This document shows positions 2,274-10,231 of a stretch of DNA of 64,000 nucleotides, in pieces. Within the stretch, counting starts at the first letter, position 1; each line of letters begins with the position of its first letter. Source of the stretch: an uncultured Acidobacteriota bacterium (GTDB taxonomy: Bacteria; Acidobacteriota; Vicinamibacteria; Vicinamibacterales; CAVVIG01); contig CADEDC010000003.1 in the NCBI GenBank assembly GCA_902825985.1, forward strand, positions 74,926-138,925, read 5' to 3'. The notes below the pieces were generated by a model. The model saw nothing but the letters and a program-made list of their open reading frames with translations. It ran no database searches and was not told where the DNA came from. A program made the translations under genes and the position numbers.

Positions 2274-2624
2274 TCAGTGTGGCTTGCGATGGGTCGCGGT
2301 GACCGAGGTCGTGATGCCGCCGCGGGCCGAGAAGTCACCGACGACGGTGATCTCATGCGGGTCGAGCAGCGCGACCAGGTCGTCGAGAATCTGGTTCGTG
2401 ACCGTCTCGTAGAAGATGCCGCGGTTGCGGAACTCGACCATGTAGTACTTGAGCGACTTGAGTTCGACGCAGCGCTGGTCGGGGACGTAAGTAATCCGTA
2501 TCTCGCCGAAATCAGGCAGTCCGGTCTTCGGGCAGACGGAGGTGAACTCGGGGCAGCGGATCAGGATTTCGAAGCGCCGTTCGGGCCGCGGATTCGGAAA
2601 GGTTTCGAGCGTCGAGCTGGACAT
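2274..2624 (-). CDS. queF: NADPH-dependent preQ0 reductase (QueF)
   Basis: This enzyme reduces 7-cyano-7-deazaguanine to preQ1 in queuosine biosynthesis. The 116-residue length fits the single-domain (YkvM-type) class. It has the active-site Cys in TSVCPKTGLPDFGEI and the QueF signature ELKSLKYYM. The open frame continues upstream, but the ATG at 2624 is chosen because family similarity begins there and an extended -10 element lies 8 nt upstream. No preQ1 riboswitch fits in so short a leader. It is divergent from the HU gene. Confidence 0.92.
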   Translation of the reverse strand: MSSSTLETFPNPRPERRFEILIRCPEFTSVCPKTGLPDFGEIRITYVPDQRCVELKSLKYYMVEFRNRGIFYETVTNQILDDLVALLDPHEITVVGDFSARGGITTSVTATHRKPH

Positions 2625-2632
2625 CACGTAAA

Positions 2633-2638
2633 ATTCTA
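2633..2638 (-). promoter_or_regulatory. Extended -10 element for queF
   Basis: On the minus strand the sequence TGCTAGAAT ends 8 nt before the queF ATG. It is a good -10 hexamer (TAGAAT) with a TGn extension. The implied transcription start is within a couple of bases of the start codon, so the mRNA would be nearly leaderless. Confidence 0.5.
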
Positions 2639-2641
2639 GCA

Positions 2642-2667
2642 TTCTGGCCAGAAAACCGCGTTTTCTG
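2642..2667. promoter_or_regulatory. Two overlapping palindromes between queF and HU
   Basis: A 12-bp perfect palindrome TTCTGGCCAGAA (2642-2653) overlaps a second inverted repeat, CAGAAAAC-CGC-GTTTTCTG (2649-2667, 8-bp arms). They lie upstream of the queF -10 and 12 bp before the HU -35. A repressor or activator bound here could affect both genes. No regulator is identified. Confidence 0.45.
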
Positions 2668-2678
2668 CGCAATCCGGT

Positions 2679-2708
2679 TTGACACCTGCGAGAGGCGCGC
2701 GTTACGAT
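2679..2708 (+). promoter_or_regulatory. Sigma-70 type promoter of the HU gene
   Basis: TTGACA (2679-2684), an 18-bp spacer, then TACGAT (2703-2708). This is one of the best sigma-70 matches in the window. The start site would fall near 2715, giving a leader of about 85 nt before the HU start. Confidence 0.7.
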
Positions 2709-2798
2709 TAGCCCGATTTCAGAGGCAAACCAGCGATCTTCGCAGCGCGCATGCGATCGCCGGTGAACATCACGCGCGACACAGCAAGGGGAACGACG

Positions 2799-3098
2799 AT
2801 GGCAGACGCCCGCAGGATGGGCAAATCCGAGCTCTTCTCGCACTTCGCGGAACGGTTCGAGGTGAAGCGGACGCAGGCCCGCGACTTCTTCGACGCGCTC
2901 GCGGAGCTGGCGGAAAAAGAGCTCAAACGCTCGGGCGAATTCGTGCTGCCCGGCATGGTCAAACTCGTAGTCCAGAAGCGCAAGGCGCGGATGGGTCGCA
3001 ACCCGGCGACGGGCGAGGCGATCAAGATCCCCGCAAAGACGGTTGTGAAGGCCCGCATCACCAAGCAGTTGAAAGACGCCGTCCTGCCGCGCAAGTAG
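2799..3098 (+). CDS. HU/IHF-family DNA-binding protein
   Basis: A 99-residue nucleoid-associated protein. The helical N-terminus (MGKSELFSHFAERF) is followed by the beta-arm region with GRNPATGEAIKIPAKTVVKAR, the hallmark of HU/IHF. The start at 2799 is preferred over 2751 because family similarity begins there and AAGGGGA lies about 7 nt upstream. It is slightly longer than classical HU (about 90 residues), with a Lys/Arg-rich C-terminus. It has its own strong promoter and is probably monocistronic. Confidence 0.9.
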   Translation: MADARRMGKSELFSHFAERFEVKRTQARDFFDALAELAEKELKRSGEFVLPGMVKLVVQKRKARMGRNPATGEAIKIPAKTVVKARITKQLKDAVLPRK

Positions 3099-3624: not shown

Positions 3625-5367
3625 TCAGCTGGCCGCCTGCGCCGGCAGCGTTTCCCGGGCCGGGAAGCGCATGGTGAACTTCGTCCCGATGCCGACCTCG
3701 CTCTCGACGGCGATGCTGCCGTCGAGCTGTTCGACGATCCGCTTGCAGATCGCCAGGCCGAGGCCGAGGCCGCGTCGCTTGGTCGTCACGAACTCTTCGA
3801 AGATCGTCGCGAGCCGATCGGCGGGGATGCCGGAACCGGTGTCGGCGACCGTCACCTGCACGAAGCCGTCCTGCCGTCCGGTGGTGATGGTCACCGAGCC
3901 GCCGGCGGCTGTCGCCTGTATGCCGTTGGTGATCAGGTTGCGGTAGACGCGCCCGAGCGCGAAGCGGTCGCCGACGACCATCAGCGGACCGTCGCCGTAC
4001 TGTGCGTGCACGGCCACGCCCTGGCGCTCGCCCTCCGCCTTCATCGAGTCGACGATCTCCGACACCGACGTGTTCATGTCGAGGGCGAACCGCTCGATCG
4101 GTTTCGGTTTGACGATATTGCGGAGATCGTCCATGAAGCGCTTCAGGGTGGACAGTTCCCGGTCGATCGTCTTGCGGAACATGTCGCGCGACTCGGCGTC
4201 GAGATCGTCGCGCAGCAGCAGGCGCGTGCTGTTGCCGATGTTCTGGATCGGATGCGACAGGTCGTGGACGAGGCCGGCCGCAATCCGGCCGAACATCGCC
4301 TGGCGCTCCTGCTTCTTCACTTCCTCCTGCAGCTCGACGAGCCGGTCGGCCATCGTGTTGAACGACGCGCCGAGCTCCTGGAACTCGTCGTTGGTCGCGA
4401 TGTCGACCCGGGTCTCCAGATGACCGGCCGCCACCTGCTGGGTCGCCGCCTTGAGCGTCCAGATCGGCGCGATGAACCGGCGACCGAAGGTCAGTCCGAC
4501 GGCCATCATGATGAGCAGGGCGAGGGCGATGGCGATCGTCAGCTGCCGTCTCAGCGCCAGCGACGTGGCGAAGGCTTCGCTCGTCGGCTGTTCGACCATC
4601 ACGGTCCAGCCGAGCGTCGGGATCGCGGCGGCGACGGAGAGGACCGGCTCGCCGCCCTCGGGTGCGTACTCCACCCACGGCGGCGCCCCCGGCTGCAGCA
4701 GCGGGTGGCCGGATTCGCGCTGCGCCTGTGCGACGAGCGGCTTGCGATCGGGGTCGCCGTGCGCCATCAAGGTGCCATCGGCCGAGATCACCATGGCGTG
4801 GCCGCGGTTGCCGATGCGGATGCGATCGACCATGCGCCACATCTCTTCGAGGCTGATCTGGCCGATCAGCCAGCCGGCCGGCTGATTGAGCCGGCGCAGC
4901 TGGATGGCGAACTCGGTCGTTGGCAGTTGGTCCTCGTCGAACCGCACCGCCGTCATGCTGGCGCCGCCGACCCTGATCGTGGCGCCGGCCGGGATCGCCA
5001 GGCGCGTCGGGCCGACCCGGCTCGTCGCGACGGTGCCGCCGGCGGCATCGAACAGCGTGATCTCACGGAACTCGCGGAACTGCAGGATGTAGTTCTTGAC
5101 GATGCGGTCCTGCTGCCAGACCTCGAGTTCGGTGTCCTGCAGGTCGGCACCGAGGGCCTTCAGGATCTCGGCGTGGCCGGAAACGTAGCGGGTGATTTCC
5201 TCGGCGGCCCGTGCCGCGACGTTCTGGTTGCCGACGATGACGGTGTCGCGGGTGCCGGACTGGAGGGAGAACAGCGACACGAAGCCGTACAGGAGCAGCG
5301 GCACGACCGCGGCACCGGCCAGGATCAGCGCGAAGCGTACGGCGATGCGTCGGACCGCGAATCCCAT
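3625..5367 (-). CDS. Membrane sensor histidine kinase with Cache-type domain
   Basis: A 580-residue kinase. Transmembrane helix 1 is at about 8-36, followed by an extracytoplasmic Cache-like domain (about 37-285), helix 2 (286-304) and HAMP (306-355). A HisKA-type segment carries the likely phospho-acceptor His368 in GLVHDLSHPIQNIG. The C-terminal HATPase has an N box (NLITNGIQATA), a G1 box (DTGSGIPADR) and a G2 box (GLGLGLAICKRI). It starts 6 nt after the substrate-binding lipoprotein gene. The NtrC-type regulator two genes beyond that is its most likely partner. The ligand is unknown; the adjacent lipoprotein or the small peptide are candidates. Confidence 0.88.
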   Translation of the reverse strand: MGFAVRRIAVRFALILAGAAVVPLLLYGFVSLFSLQSGTRDTVIVGNQNVAARAAEEITRYVSGHAEILKALGADLQDTELEVWQQDRIVKNYILQFREFREITLFDAAGGTVATSRVGPTRLAIPAGATIRVGGASMTAVRFDEDQLPTTEFAIQLRRLNQPAGWLIGQISLEEMWRMVDRIRIGNRGHAMVISADGTLMAHGDPDRKPLVAQAQRESGHPLLQPGAPPWVEYAPEGGEPVLSVAAAIPTLGWTVMVEQPTSEAFATSLALRRQLTIAIALALLIMMAVGLTFGRRFIAPIWTLKAATQQVAAGHLETRVDIATNDEFQELGASFNTMADRLVELQEEVKKQERQAMFGRIAAGLVHDLSHPIQNIGNSTRLLLRDDLDAESRDMFRKTIDRELSTLKRFMDDLRNIVKPKPIERFALDMNTSVSEIVDSMKAEGERQGVAVHAQYGDGPLMVVGDRFALGRVYRNLITNGIQATAAGGSVTITTGRQDGFVQVTVADTGSGIPADRLATIFEEFVTTKRRGLGLGLAICKRIVEQLDGSIAVESEVGIGTKFTMRFPARETLPAQAAS

Positions 5368-5373
5368 CGGGCC

Positions 5374-6831
5374 TCAGTGAGTGGTCGCGACGGCAGGGGG
5401 CGGCGCCGGACGCCACAAGCGCAGCGTCGCCAGCGGATCCCGTCCCGGCTCCGCCGGCACGTCGAACGCCGTGCTGATCGCGCGCGCCCGTTCGCTCCAC
5501 GCCAGGAAGATCGCCGGCGGGTCGTCCAGAATCGCGCGCTGAAAGGCCGCCACGCCGGTCCTGTAAGCCTCGTCGTCCACGGCGTGCCGGATCGAGTCGA
5601 GGGCTGCGTCAACCGCCGGGCTGTCGTAGCCGCCGTAATTATACGGGCCTTTCGAGTGCCAGAATAAATAAGGGCGCAAGAGGGTTGGCGCGCTGGCGAG
5701 GTCGGTCAGCACCAGGTCGAAGTCGCTGTCCGCAATCCGCTTCAAGCTCGCTTCTGGCCCCGGCATCTCCAGCACGGCGGCAATCCCGACCGAGCGCAAC
5801 TGACGCTGCAGCGCGATGCCGATCCGTTCGTGCGTCGGATCGGCGATCAGCAGGCTGATCGTCAATGGCGCGTCGGCGGGGGCCAGCTGCCGTGGCTCGT
5901 AGGCGAGCGGCGGCAGTTCCTCCGGTGCCGCCCAATGATCCGGCCAGACGGGTCCGGCCGACGGCGTTCCGCGATTGCCGAGCACGTCGGCAATCAGGAG
6001 CGGTCGGTCGACCGCAGCGCTCATCCCCCGCCGGAGGCCCGGGTCGCGAAGCGCCGGCTTCTTGACGTTGAACAGCACGACATACTGGTAGTGACGTCGG
6101 TACGAGAACACCCGGACCTGAGAGGAGGGCTGCAACGAGTCCAACGCCTCGACACCAACCTCGAACAGCATGTCGACGTTGCCGCGGAGCAGGTCGGCCC
6201 AGGCGGCGCGCACCGACTCGTAGGGTTTCAGCTCGATGCGGCTGAGCGCCGGTGCGCCCTCCGTGTAGGCCTCGTTGGCGAGCAGGCGGGCGCCGTCATC
6301 CGGCGAACGCCGGAAGGCGCCAGAGCCGACACCGGGGGCGCCGGGCTTGGCAATCAATCCGTCGAGCGCCTCGAGCAGGAATGTCGAGGGGCGATGCAGG
6401 TGGAAGACCAGTTCGCGTTCGGACGCGACCTCCACCTGCTTCAGGTCGTCGAAGGCGGGTCCGAGCTGGCGCGGCAGCCGTTGCTCGATGACCTCGCGGA
6501 CGAGCGTGGCCGTGACGGGAGCGCCGTCGTGGAAGACGGCGTCACGGAGCGTCAGACGCAGCGCCCGTCGATCTGGCGAGTACGACCAACGTGCTGCGAG
6601 CTGCGGCGCCGGCCGGCCATCCCGCGCGAACAGCACGAGTGGCTCGGACGTCAGATTGGCGACCAGCTGGGCGATGCCGGCATCGGCGACCGCCCCGGTT
6701 GCGGCGCCGGCACCGAGGCCGATGTGGAGCGTCGTCGATGAACGAGGGTTGCTGGCCGGGCCGTCACCGCACCCGGCCGTCATCAGGAGAGCCGCAGCGA
6801 CAAAGAAACGCACGATGGCAGTTTTCCTCAC
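5374..6831 (-). CDS. Oligopeptide-type substrate-binding lipoprotein (SBP_bac_5), orphan
   Basis: A 485-residue protein with a lipoprotein signal ending in LLMTAGC (Cys21), so it is membrane-anchored on the outer face. The body matches family-5 solute-binding proteins: a domain containing SEPLVLFARDGRPAPQLAARW and LTLRDAVFHDGAPVTA, and the C-terminal PYNYGGYDSPAVDAALD. Such proteins normally deliver peptides to ABC permeases, but no permease or ATPase is adjacent. It is followed 6 nt later by the histidine kinase, which suggests it presents a ligand to that sensor. The start is GTG with a GGGGGAG sequence just upstream. Confidence 0.85.
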   Translation of the reverse strand: MRKTAIVRFFVAAALLMTAGCGDGPASNPRSSTTLHIGLGAGAATGAVADAGIAQLVANLTSEPLVLFARDGRPAPQLAARWSYSPDRRALRLTLRDAVFHDGAPVTATLVREVIEQRLPRQLGPAFDDLKQVEVASERELVFHLHRPSTFLLEALDGLIAKPGAPGVGSGAFRRSPDDGARLLANEAYTEGAPALSRIELKPYESVRAAWADLLRGNVDMLFEVGVEALDSLQPSSQVRVFSYRRHYQYVVLFNVKKPALRDPGLRRGMSAAVDRPLLIADVLGNRGTPSAGPVWPDHWAAPEELPPLAYEPRQLAPADAPLTISLLIADPTHERIGIALQRQLRSVGIAAVLEMPGPEASLKRIADSDFDLVLTDLASAPTLLRPYLFWHSKGPYNYGGYDSPAVDAALDSIRHAVDDEAYRTGVAAFQRAILDDPPAIFLAWSERARAISTAFDVPAEPGRDPLATLRLWRPAPPPAVATTH

Positions 6832-6868: not shown

Positions 6869-6970
6869 CTACTTGGCCGGCATGCCGCCGTCGATGTCGT
6901 CGATCATCAGCGGGCACCAGCCGGATGGCTTTGCGTTCTTCGTCGCCTTCTTCACAACCTTGATCTTCAT
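6869..6970 (-). CDS. Putative RiPP precursor peptide, 33 residues
   Basis: A 33-codon gene beginning 10 nt after the radical SAM maturase gene on the same strand. The N-terminal half is Lys-rich and lacks acidic residues. The C-terminal half is the probable core, SGWCPLMIDDIDGGMPAK, with one Trp, one Cys, two Pro and an acidic IDDID patch. A clear ribosome site (GAGGG, 7-nt spacer) overlaps the maturase stop, indicating translational coupling. I do not recognise the family. Trp and Cys next to Pro are plausible sites for radical SAM chemistry such as cyclophane or thioether formation. No dedicated protease or exporter is visible nearby. Gene order (maturase before precursor) is unusual. Confidence 0.7.
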   Translation of the reverse strand: MKIKVVKKATKNAKPSGWCPLMIDDIDGGMPAK

Positions 6971-6977
6971 ATTTATA

Positions 6978-6982
6978 CCCTC
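6978..6982 (-). promoter_or_regulatory. Ribosome-binding site of the peptide gene
   Basis: GAGGG, 7 nt before the peptide ATG, shares bases with the TGA stop of the maturase gene. It is the main sequence evidence that the 33-codon frame is translated. Confidence 0.65.
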
Positions 6983-8468
6983 AGTTGGCGCTGGCCACGT
7001 CATGGGCCAGTGCGATGGCAGCCGATTCAAACGATCGCTTGTGACATGTCGGCCGGTTCATGTCGCCAAGCTCGGACTGTGACGCAACCAGGCATCCGCC
7101 GGCACACACCGGGATGAACGCACAGTCGCCACACTCACTCCACGGATTCAGCGCGTCGAACTGCTCGCGATTCTCGACGCGCCACGACTCGCGACGGTCG
7201 TCGATGTGACCGACCGACTTCGACTTCTCGCCGGTGAAGCCGGCGCACGCGTACAGCGACCCATCACAGCCGATGGTGTGCGCGTGCTTCATGTGGACAT
7301 GACAGGGACCGCCATGGACACCGTCTGGGGTTGGGAAGCCGTGCTTCTTCGTCTCGCTGCGCAGGAACGACATGCTGTCTTCCGCGAAGCCGCACGAATC
7401 GCACGCCGTGCCGGTCGACCCGTGCCCGGATCCGGCCGACGTCATGCAGGTGCCGCCGAGCGGCTTGCCGTGGCCGTCCACCGGGGTCAACGTCAACCGC
7501 CCCTTCACCGGCTGCACCTGATCGCGGATCACCGGCTTGAAGTTGACCTTCACCAGCTGGTCGGCGAACTCCTGCTCGCGCAGGAACGCGAGCAGCGCCG
7601 GGTAGCTCTCGACCGACGTCTCGTCGTAGTTGCCACCGATGCCGATACGGGTCTTGCCGGCCACCTTCCGGATGTTCTCGATGATGCGATCGAACGTCCC
7701 CTGGCCGCCGCGCAGCGGACGCATCCGGTTGTGCGTGTCACGGTCGCCGTCGAGCGTGATCTTCACGCCGCTCAAGCCGTAGCGATTCATCCGGTCGACG
7801 ATCTCTTCACTGAGCAGCAGCCCGTTGGTGACGATGCTGATCGTCTGCCTGACGCCGCGGGCCCGCGTCACGTTCGCCATCCGCTCGGCGATGAGATACA
7901 TCACCGGCAGGTTCAGCAGCGGCTCGCCGCCGAAGAACATGATGTGCAGCTTGGCCGGATTCACGCGCTGCAGCTCGCGCTCGATCCAGTCGGCGGTCTT
8001 GTGGGCGGTGTCGAGGGTCATCTTCTCGGCGAACTTGCTGTAGTCGCCCCGATCGCCTTGATAGCAGTAGTCGCAGGCGAAGTTGCACTGCAGCGTCGTC
8101 AGCACCGTGATGTGCAACTCCTCGGTGCTCTCCTTCGTCCGGACGAAGAAGCCGTCGATCGCTGCCCGCTCGTCCTGGCGGTTCGGGACGAGAAAGCCGT
8201 TCTCCTCGAGCAGTCCGATCGCCTCACGCTCGTCGGCCGGCAGGTGGTCGAGGACGACGTCACTCACCGGTTGCTCGAAGCGTTCGAGCAGCGCCGCGAC
8301 GTCGTCCGACACGATCATCTGCGCGTCGGTCATGGTGTTCATCAGGAACACCTCGCGACCCGAATCGATCGGCACACGGAGATTGAAGATCGACGCTTGC
8401 ATTGCCCGGTCATTGAGCAACTGGCGTTCCAGCTTCGCGCGCCATCGCATGAGCAGCGATTCGATCAA
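6981..8468 (-). CDS. Radical SAM/SPASM peptide maturase
   Basis: A protein of up to 495 residues. Residues about 30-115 form an N-terminal segment typical of SPASM peptide maturases, possibly binding the leader. The radical SAM core carries CNFACDYC (Cys128, 132, 135), which holds the [4Fe-4S] cluster and SAM, and FFGGEP near 178-183. The C-terminal SPASM region has Cys389, 401, 408, 446, 449, 455, 459 and 475 for auxiliary clusters. A Gly-rich insertion at about 330-385 carries Cys341, 356 and 359 (including CDSC) and is unusual. The start is uncertain: TTG at 8468, ATG at 8450 or ATG at 8402. It probably modifies the 33-residue peptide encoded immediately downstream. Confidence 0.88.
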   Translation of the reverse strand: MIESLLMRWRAKLERQLLNDRAMQASIFNLRVPIDSGREVFLMNTMTDAQMIVSDDVAALLERFEQPVSDVVLDHLPADEREAIGLLEENGFLVPNRQDERAAIDGFFVRTKESTEELHITVLTTLQCNFACDYCYQGDRGDYSKFAEKMTLDTAHKTADWIERELQRVNPAKLHIMFFGGEPLLNLPVMYLIAERMANVTRARGVRQTISIVTNGLLLSEEIVDRMNRYGLSGVKITLDGDRDTHNRMRPLRGGQGTFDRIIENIRKVAGKTRIGIGGNYDETSVESYPALLAFLREQEFADQLVKVNFKPVIRDQVQPVKGRLTLTPVDGHGKPLGGTCMTSAGSGHGSTGTACDSCGFAEDSMSFLRSETKKHGFPTPDGVHGGPCHVHMKHAHTIGCDGSLYACAGFTGEKSKSVGHIDDRRESWRVENREQFDALNPWSECGDCAFIPVCAGGCLVASQSELGDMNRPTCHKRSFESAAIALAHDVASAN

Positions 8469-8839
8469 TGAACATGCGGTGTTTCCGCTGATCGCGACGC
8501 GGGCGCAGCGGCCGACGATCGGTCAATGGATTGGCCGCTCGGTGCGCGCCGCCGCCGTGGATGGCTGTTACTTGCGGCAGCAGCACGGATTGACCCGACG
8601 GTCAGTCGGTTGGCTACAGTGGCTAGTTTTCTACCGGGTGATCGGCGATCCGGGGCGGGGCGGTCCGTCACATCCGCGTGACGACCGTCACGAGAGGAAT
8701 CGGAACGATCGTCATGCGGCTTTAGTCCGAGGACCGAGGCGCCCGGCGGGTGATTGGCCCGAACCGGACCAGTGGCGGCCGGCGGCTGGCGGCGGGGCTG
8801 CGAGGGAGGAGGTGCGAGACGCGCGGACGATCGAGAGGA
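8469..8839. other. 371-bp non-coding regulatory gap
   Basis: This lies between the response regulator stop and the maturase start, both on the minus strand. It has no credible gene; the only frame (8671-8465) is Arg/Ser-rich and low-complexity. It contains the GTGAC dyad array at 8667-8692. Several GG-N10-GC pairs (for example around 8634-8621) resemble sigma-54 spacing but lack the rest of the consensus, so no promoter is called. Confidence 0.6.
8667..8692. promoter_or_regulatory. GTGAC dyad array, candidate regulator binding site
   Basis: Three half-sites alternate in orientation: GTCAC (8667), GTGAC (8678), GTCAC (8687). They form CGTGAC-GACC-GTCACG, a perfect 6-bp-arm dyad at 8677-8692, and an overlapping GTCAC-N6-GTGAC. 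They sit about 200 bp upstream of the maturase start, a distance typical of upstream activator sites for NtrC-type regulators. The regulator encoded next door is the obvious candidate. Confidence 0.5.
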
Positions 8840-10231
8840 CTACGACGCGCCGCGGAGCTTACGGGCCAGCTGACGGACCTCGAGCTTGTCCATCTTGTAC
8901 TTCAGCGTGCTCAGCGGAACCCCGAGGTACTCGGCCGTGCCGGTGACGTTGCCGCCGCACCTTTCGAGGGCCCGCAGGATGAAGTTCCGCTCGAAGGTGT
9001 TGGTGGCATCCTCGAACAGACTGTCGGTCCGCCGCCCCTGCGGTTCGAGCTGAGCGAAGTGAAACTCGAGCGGCAGGTCTTCCTCCGAGATGAAATCCTT
9101 GTCGCTGACCGCCACCAGGCGCTCGATCAGGTTCTCCAGCTCGCGGATGTTGCCCGGCCACCAGTATTTCCGCAGCAGCGTCATCGTCGGTTCGGTGATG
9201 CCCTGGATCTGCTTCCGGAACCGCGCATTGTAGCGGCGGAGGAAGAACTCTGCGAGCTGCGGGATATCGTCCGCCCGCTCGCGCAGCGGCGGCAGCTTGA
9301 TGGGGATGACGTTGATCCGATAGAAGAGGTCCTCACGGAAGCGCCCCTCCTTCACCGCCTTCTCGAGGTCGACGTTGGTGGCCGCAATCAGCCGGAACTC
9401 CGTCTTGATCGGCTTGGTGCCGCCCACCCGTTCGATCTCGCCCTCCTGAATCGCCCGCAACAGCTTGGCCTGCAGATCCATCCGCAGGTCGCCGATCTCG
9501 TCCAGGAACAGCGTGCCGCCCGATGCGAGCTCGAACTTGCCCAGCTGTTGCCGATGAGCGCCGGTGAACGATCCGCGCTCGTGCCCGAACAGCGTGCTCT
9601 CGGCCAGATCGCGCGGGATGGCGGCCAGGTTGACGGCAATGAACGGCGACTCGGCGTCTCCCGCCTCGCGGTGAATCAGCCGGGCAAGCAGTTCCTTGCC
9701 GGTGCCGCTCTCGCCCAGAATCAGGACGGTTGCCGAGAGCTTGGCAATCTTCGCCACCAGGTCGACAATCTCCCGGCCGACGCGGCTGGGTCCGACGATG
9801 AACTCACGTTCCGTCTGATCGGCGACCTGGGCTGACAAAGTCAGCACCTGTCGGTTCAGGTCCTGTCGTTCGCTCGCGTTGCGCACGAGGGCGCGCAACT
9901 GGTCGTAATCGAAGTCCTTCGTGACGTAGTGATACGCACCGTGCTTCATCGCCTGCACGGCGGTCTCGATCTCGTTGATGGCCGAGATCATGATGACCTC
10001 GACCAGGCTGTAGTTCTCCTTGATGATGCGAAGGACTTCGAAGCCGGAGATGCCAGGCAGGCGTACATCCAGAAGCACGAGATCCACGTCCTCCCGGTTC
10101 AGCACCGGAAGCGCAGCCTCGCCACTGGCGACGCGGAGGACACGGTATTCACGCTTCAGAATGGCCGTCAGCGTGTCGCGCATGCCCTCGTCGTCATCGA
10201 CGACGAGAACAGTCTTGGCCTTTTGGCTCAT
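8840..10231 (-). CDS. NtrC-family sigma-54-dependent response regulator
   Basis: A 463-residue protein. The receiver domain (1-120) has Asp55 as phosphorylation site in LVLLDVRLPG. The AAA+ domain has Walker A GESGTGKE (173-180), a sigma-54 contact loop GSFTGA (220-225, with Ser where Ala is usual) and Walker B GGTLFLDEIG. The C-terminal Fis-type helix-turn-helix includes GGNVTGTAEYLGVPLSTLKYKM written here only as its start and end residues G-G-N-V to K-Y-K-M. It lies upstream of the maturase/peptide/lipoprotein/kinase set on the same strand and probably activates it through sigma-54 RNA polymerase. Confidence 0.92.
   Translation of the reverse strand: MSQKAKTVLVVDDDEGMRDTLTAILKREYRVLRVASGEAALPVLNREDVDLVLLDVRLPGISGFEVLRIIKENYSLVEVIMISAINEIETAVQAMKHGAYHYVTKDFDYDQLRALVRNASERQDLNRQVLTLSAQVADQTEREFIVGPSRVGREIVDLVAKIAKLSATVLILGESGTGKELLARLIHREAGDAESPFIAVNLAAIPRDLAESTLFGHERGSFTGAHRQQLGKFELASGGTLFLDEIGDLRMDLQAKLLRAIQEGEIERVGGTKPIKTEFRLIAATNVDLEKAVKEGRFREDLFYRINVIPIKLPPLRERADDIPQLAEFFLRRYNARFRKQIQGITEPTMTLLRKYWWPGNIRELENLIERLVAVSDKDFISEEDLPLEFHFAQLEPQGRRTDSLFEDATNTFERNFILRALERCGGNVTGTAEYLGVPLSTLKYKMDKLEVRQLARKLRGAS

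Follow-up and report, generated by a model that had tools for sequence, protein, structure and literature searches.

A radical SAM-associated peptide operon in Vicinamibacteria: a candidate self-sensed RiPP signal

Introduction

Most radical SAM RiPPs are of unknown function. In PQQ- and mycofactocin-type systems, a short precursor is encoded with no linked exporter. The maturase PapB makes Cys-Asp/Glu thioethers and, in Cys-Xn-Asp, accepts spacers of n = 0 to 6 (PMC9413430). Peptide autoinducers of the Agr (AgrBDCA) type include ANST[CPWII] in C. difficile and [CLWFT] in C. perfringens (PMC12312760), and the C. difficile AgrD1 sequence has also been reported elsewhere (PMC8534292). A signalling molecule may also be held by a solute-binding protein (SBP), as in AapF of Pseudomonas PDC86, an SBP_bac_5-type protein bound to HEHEAA (7KZ9).

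The locus described here lies in 64,000 nucleotides of DNA (the window) from an uncultured member of the Acidobacteriota, a soil phylum that is abundant and poorly understood. A sequence-only reading had pointed to a 33-residue ORF downstream of a maturase as an overlooked RiPP precursor. No description of such a system was found in open-licence papers. Table 1 summarizes the features of the locus.

Table 1. Features of the peptide locus in the window
Feature	Position	Strand	Basis or remark
dCache-HAMP histidine kinase, proposed signal transducer	3625..5367	minus	domains, co-occurrence
Orphan SBP_bac_5 lipoprotein, proposed peptide receptor	5374..6831	minus	invariant Cys21
Precursor peptide gene, 33 aa	6869..6970	minus	ATG at 6970, stop at 6869; family HMM, pN/pS, genome-wide search
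Precursor layout: leader MKIKVVKK..., core KPSGWCPLMIDDIDGGMPAK		minus
Shine-Dalgarno-like GAGGG of the precursor	6978..6982	minus	overlaps maturase stop (6981-6983)
Radical SAM/SPASM maturase, 473 aa, with putative RRE-like domain at the N-terminus	6981..8402	minus	family search, alignment, AlphaFold model
Putative -24/-12 sigma-54 promoter TGGAACGCCAGTTGC	8417..8431	minus	upstream of maturase; family DNA alignment
Putative palindromic operator GGCCAATCCATTGACC	8521..8536	minus	1 mismatch to GGCCAA-N4-TTGGCC
Putative palindromic operator AGCCAACCGACTGACC	8600..8615	minus	3 mismatches to GGCCAA-N4-TTGGCC
NtrC-type sigma-54 activating response regulator, proposed operon activator	8840..10231	minus	domains, neighbourhood

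The Precursor Peptide and Its Family

The ORF, which translates to MKIKVVKKATKNAKPSGWCPLMIDDIDGGMPAK, is present exactly as the sequence-only reading had claimed, running from ATG to stop on the minus strand 10 bp after the maturase stop. Maturase homologues were gathered from 193 genomes of the class and from a set of 84,980 genomes, the latter in a scan whose patterns came from one sequence and which reaches close relatives only; this yielded 68 non-redundant loci. A single HMM, trained on the first small ORFs, matched 72 peptides, and nine Cys-less relatives were added by motif search, giving 81 precursors in 58 loci. In 58/68 loci, therefore, a precursor lies just downstream of the radical SAM/SPASM maturase. 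The other ten are seven contig ends and the loci L107, with a longer 56-aa form, L022, with a truncation, and L012. In L012 two in-frame stops interrupt the precursor (MKI*VVRRASN*KPAGYCDLWVDGPAMNKK, asterisks marking stops) though the maturase ORF is open, and this copy is either a recent pseudogene or a sequencing error. At the contig end of L010 the cut runs through a peptide.

The first precursor follows the maturase stop at a distance of -4 to 138 bp (median 19.5), and a Shine-Dalgarno-like sequence precedes all 81 precursors. The peptides have a median length of 31 aa; those of the Cys-type span 25-38 aa and carry one Cys each. The predicted leader and core are both borne out by homologues conserved downstream of maturases, as is the suggestion that gene callers had missed the peptide. 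The first half is indeed Lys-rich, the conserved leader being MKI(T/K)VIKK. The order of maturase before precursor, real as it is, had been called unusual, whereas it is the rule within this family.

A lone short ORF below the usual gene-calling length in a GC-rich genome could be the product of chance, or of conservation in non-coding DNA. Yet the best HMM matches reach 5e-18 among 5,361 small ORFs searched, and pN is below pS in all 262 between-locus pairs above 55% identity, with a median pN/pS of 0.44. A genome-wide search with the peptide alignment found the precursor in 62/192 Vicinamibacteria genomes, all of them maturase-bearing, and every match adjoins the maturase or, where a contig breaks off, the operon's SBP. 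The family is under purifying selection, and the small frames downstream of maturases do not vary at random, as they would if the reading were wrong. In-frame conservation thus already refutes chance, an explanation to which we give practically no weight, and it is virtually certain that precursor and maturase form a real pair.

Eleven loci carry more than one precursor, the Cys-less one often standing first. L026 holds six, at +12, +143, +305, +467, +629 and +788 from the maturase; four are near-identical Cys-type copies 162 bp apart, with a Cys-less one on either side. Genome G142 has two separate maturase loci, L016 and L041/L095. Across 396 genomes sampled evenly from the phylum, the maturase gave 19 matches at E <= 1e-50, all within the order of the window. 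The peptide family reached no NCBIfam precursor model above its cut-off, and Pfam likewise lacks the family; single members gave weak, isolated Pfam matches to benzylsuccinate synthase beta, Methanobactin and AgrD, which were set aside.

The Maturase and the Predicted Crosslink

The maturase start is probably the ATG at 8402 rather than the TTG of a longer ORF that runs to 8468, because homologues begin M-x-x-S-x-F-N and the DNA upstream consists of promoter elements instead of conserved coding sequence. The radical SAM and SPASM cysteines are conserved across 55 maturase sequences. The enzyme falls below every NCBIfam cut-off listed, the best models being geopeptide maturase, CefB, TIGR04463, Clo7bot and PapB. 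The geopeptide model TIGR04280 scored highest, at 238.8 bits against a curated cut-off of 400, and membership of that system was rejected. Membership of the PapB family (NF047865, 141.7 of 340 bits) was rejected as well, as was that of SCIFF/CteB (TIGR03974, 108.1 of 425 bits), whose precursor has six Cys, as against the single Cys here.

An AlphaFold model of the maturase (mean pLDDT 84.5) resembles the SCIFF thioether synthase CteB over the whole chain (Z 25.9, rmsd 4.4, 391 residues) and, almost as closely, TigE (Z 25.0). Residues 1-90 of the model form three strands followed by helices, and the CteB fit starts at model residue 4; judged within this whole-chain comparison, the N-terminus appears RRE-like.

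Core statistics were taken over 66 distinct Cys-type sequences. Cys is invariant (66/66) and is followed by Asp or Glu at +5 in 61/66. Other positions are looser: Pro stands at +1 in 51/66, Trp or Phe at +2 in 53/66, Val or Ile at +4 in 53/66, and Phe or Tyr at -1 in 38/66. In the clade of the window, +1 and +2 are variable, with Pro often replaced; Trp at +2 is absent, the aromatic residue lies mostly at -1, and no Trp or other aromatic position is conserved. The WCP motif, to which the sequence-only reading had given the central place, is therefore one local spelling in which W and P vary and Cys alone is constant. Its acidic IDDID patch survives as a single kept acid, the Asp/Glu at Cys+5, the remainder of the patch not being retained.

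Since the conserved features are a single Cys and Asp/Glu at +5, a Cys-X4-Asp/Glu thioether is favoured over a Trp cyclophane, and a cyclophane on W18, one of the chemistries that the sequence-only reading had listed, becomes unlikely. The spacing lies within the range that PapB accepts and is thus chemically reasonable. The invariant Cys and the acid at +5 are compatible with a ranthipeptide thioether, and such a bond, Cys19-Asp24 in the window, is the modification that we would name, at slightly less than even odds.

Whatever the function of the peptide, the enzyme could instead form a C-C crosslink, as a cyclophane at Trp or another aromatic residue, or make some other change on P-W-L-V-D, with Cys acting otherwise. 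The Cys-less relatives point in this direction: they read [RSTH]PWLVD[VM] and keep P-W/F-L-V-D in 13/13. These peptides occur at L089 (= L028), L029, L034, L092, L093, L094, L098, L112, L115, L118 and L026, always co-encoded with a Cys-type precursor. They are unable to form a Cys thioether, and the thioether reading leaves them unexplained. TigE, a radical SAM peptide maturase, is also structurally as close as CteB. Nevertheless, the lack of Trp at +2 and of any conserved aromatic position in the window's clade speaks against such chemistry, as does the Cys itself, which is invariant and is lost in a relic without maturase (see below). We regard this chemistry as unlikely, if the strongest competitor of the thioether. 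Five Cys-type peptides of one family (L099, L102, L108, L109 and L113) have cores reading CPWMI[CSTA]V, with Cys, Ser, Thr or Ala where the others have the +5 acid, and the thioether reading leaves these unexplained as well; this subfamily may use a different crosslink partner.

The Sensing Genes

An all-against-all comparison of flanking ORFs gave a fixed gene order: NtrC-type response regulator, maturase, precursor or precursors, SBP_bac_5 protein and histidine kinase. A QueF-like protein (window 2274-2843, minus) and a histone-like DNA-binding protein (window 2751-3098, plus) lie near the operon and outside it. Close to the N-terminus of the SBP stands an invariant Cys, consistent with a lipoprotein signal, and among the flanking ORFs of the loci no ABC permease or other transporter is a recurrent neighbour of the SBP.

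In the 193 class genomes, maturase (66), SBP (64) and kinase (72) occupy nearly the same set, the co-occurrence of maturase and SBP having a Fisher p of about 5e-43 with phylogeny uncorrected. SBP genes outside the peptide operon are confined to contig edges and one decayed locus. Of seven inspected kinase loci in which no maturase was recognised, five end at a contig edge and two (L120 and L122) are decayed. In L123 the contig cut leaves the precursor tail visible, and in L122 the kinase is truncated. L120 (genome G051, about 3900-6079) is a decaying operon with an intact regulator, no maturase, a scrap of the SBP and a frameshifted kinase; its peptide relic has Ser in place of Cys, and one perfect GGCCAACGGGTTGGCC operator remains. 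Judging from the decayed and contig-edge loci, therefore, SBP, kinase and Cys are kept only where the maturase is.

In favour of the peptide as ligand, SBP_bac_5 is a fold that binds peptides, and among the nearest solved relatives of the SBP are AppA, bound to a nonapeptide, and AapF, bound to a signalling molecule. NikZ, NikA and AgaA, whose ligands are nickel chelates and opines, are also among its SBP_bac_5 relatives, and since the fold is just as close to metal-chelate binders of the NikZ/NikA type, a chelate is a live alternative for the ligand. No other protein of the operon is as poorly conserved as the SBP, whose median identity is 34%, against 59% for the maturase. Distance between peptide cores tracks SBP distance best (r 0.59), and a partial Mantel r of 0.34 remains given the regulator, kinase-domain and maturase distances, a value that phylogenetic signal may inflate. 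This correlation is only suggestive, since shared ancestry is imperfectly removed.

Control of the Operon

When the DNA preceding the maturase was aligned within the window's family, a -24/-12 element and palindromes emerged. TGG-N8-TTGC occurs within 160 bp of the start in 26/52 loci (dinucleotide shuffles: mean 0.43, maximum 3); at least two GGCCAA-N4-TTGGCC sites with no more than three mismatches occur in 40/52 loci (shuffles: mean 1.4, maximum 4). The palindromes are most commonly spaced 20-21 bp apart, the next most common spacing being about 80 bp. A -24/-12 promoter with palindromes upstream is the layout of sigma-54/NtrC-type control, which the locus thus shares, and the adjacent sigma-54 activator is the obvious, if putative, binder of the palindromes. 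The promoter predicted in the window leaves almost no 5' leader before the maturase ATG, and one of its two operators is weak.

The regulator occurs in 96/192 genomes, many of them without the operon, and must therefore have other roles; six operon-less regulator sites that were inspected carry none of the four other genes. The strict form of two operators in tandem at a spacing of 21 bp is rare genome-wide: it was matched in 21/192 genomes, 13 of the 22 matches lying just past the regulator stop, while a reversed control pattern was matched in three genomes. Five off-locus tandem matches were inspected, and no convincing sigma-54 promoter was found beside them. The regulon of the window genome was searched with the strict tandem pattern only, to which the degenerate sites of the window itself do not conform.

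A Proposed Signalling Loop and Its Alternatives

The precursor always stands beside its own radical enzyme, and the SBP and kinase occur only with it; the peptide is therefore probably a chemical signal sensed by its producers. Starting from the precursor family, its co-occurrence with the sensing genes and the operon with its predicted operators and promoter, all read from DNA, the following loop is proposed. Through its RRE-like domain the maturase would bind the MKI(T/K)VIKK leader, and it would crosslink the core, most likely between the invariant Cys and the Asp/Glu at +5. We infer that the product is trimmed and exported by unlinked proteins. The lipoprotein SBP would then capture the exported peptide and signal through the dCache kinase, which would phosphorylate the adjacent NtrC-type regulator. 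The latter would bind the GGCCAA-N4-TTGGCC palindromes and drive the operon's sigma-54 promoter, resulting in positive feedback.

A self-sensed RiPP signal with a positive-feedback operon is the best explanation of these data, with a probability of roughly 0.5. The further step to quorum logic, that is, peptide quorum sensing in diderms by a radical SAM-crosslinked RiPP autoinducer, an orphan SBP, a dCache kinase and sigma-54 feedback, is somewhat less probable and is put forward tentatively. Several observations count against the loop: no exporter or leader peptidase is linked to the operon, the joint loss of SBP and kinase with the maturase would also fit control of production only, and the regulator is present in many genomes without the operon. 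The Cys-less relatives and the five Cys-type peptides without an acid at +5 also weigh against it, as do the nearly leaderless promoter and weak operator of the window.

The peptide could instead be an effector, antimicrobial or metal-binding, with SBP, kinase and regulator serving only to detect something external, for instance a metal, damage to the envelope or the peptide of a competitor, and to switch production on. The chelate- and opine-binding relatives of the SBP would suit such a cue, and the four near-identical precursor copies in L026 would suit bulk production; a single sigma-54 operon for production and sensing agrees with either reading. Nevertheless, the operon has no recurrent immunity gene, exporter or permease as a neighbour, the covariation of core and SBP sequences exceeds what the phylogeny proxies account for, and the SBP is absent without the peptide operon apart from the contig edges and the decayed locus, which makes an effector rather unlikely. 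A private intracellular or periplasmic role, as a peptide-derived cofactor or a ligand held permanently by the SBP with no intercellular signalling, would account for the short precursor without linked exporter and for the one-to-one tie between sensing genes and peptide. The operon has no recurrent oxidoreductase or other client enzyme, however, and its core, which in peptide-derived cofactors would be fixed, is variable at several positions; we consider such a role improbable.

If the preferred reading of a self-sensed signal is true, Acidobacteriota would have a peptide autoinducer system convergent with Agr. The genome offers candidates for receptor, kinase, regulator, operator and promoter, so that the biological role of this RiPP is directly testable.

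Comparison With Known Systems

With ranthipeptide maturases, PapB and CteB, the enzyme shares radical SAM and SPASM domains, preceded by a putative RRE-like domain at the N-terminus, CteB being the best structural match, and the Cys-Xn-Asp/Glu core of the precursor falls inside the spacing accepted by PapB (PMC9413430). It differs from the ranthipeptide, PapB and SCIFF systems in its 25-38 aa precursor with one Cys and its dedicated sensing operon. AapF offers a precedent for an SBP_bac_5-type protein bound to a signalling molecule; here, no ABC transporter stands alongside, and the partner gene of the SBP encodes a membrane kinase.

Homology to AgrD was considered because of CPWII and was rejected: AgrB (PF04647) is absent from all 192 genomes, and one of 44 precursor members matches the AgrD model TIGR04223 at all, with 18.7 bits against a cut-off of 19. 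The precursor core does resemble the C. difficile and C. perfringens autoinducers, and, as in Agr, a peptide gene, a kinase and a regulator share one locus, which here, to judge by its genes, operators and promoter, may be self-activating. Unlike Agr, it employs a radical SAM enzyme, an SBP intermediary, a dCache kinase and a sigma-54 NtrC-type regulator in diderm hosts, and its leader is unlike the amphipathic helix of AgrD. If the model is right, the operon works like Agr in design without being a member. A short conserved precursor is co-encoded with its maturase, as defines a RiPP, and the system is best filed as a new radical SAM RiPP family with a dedicated two-component sensing module.
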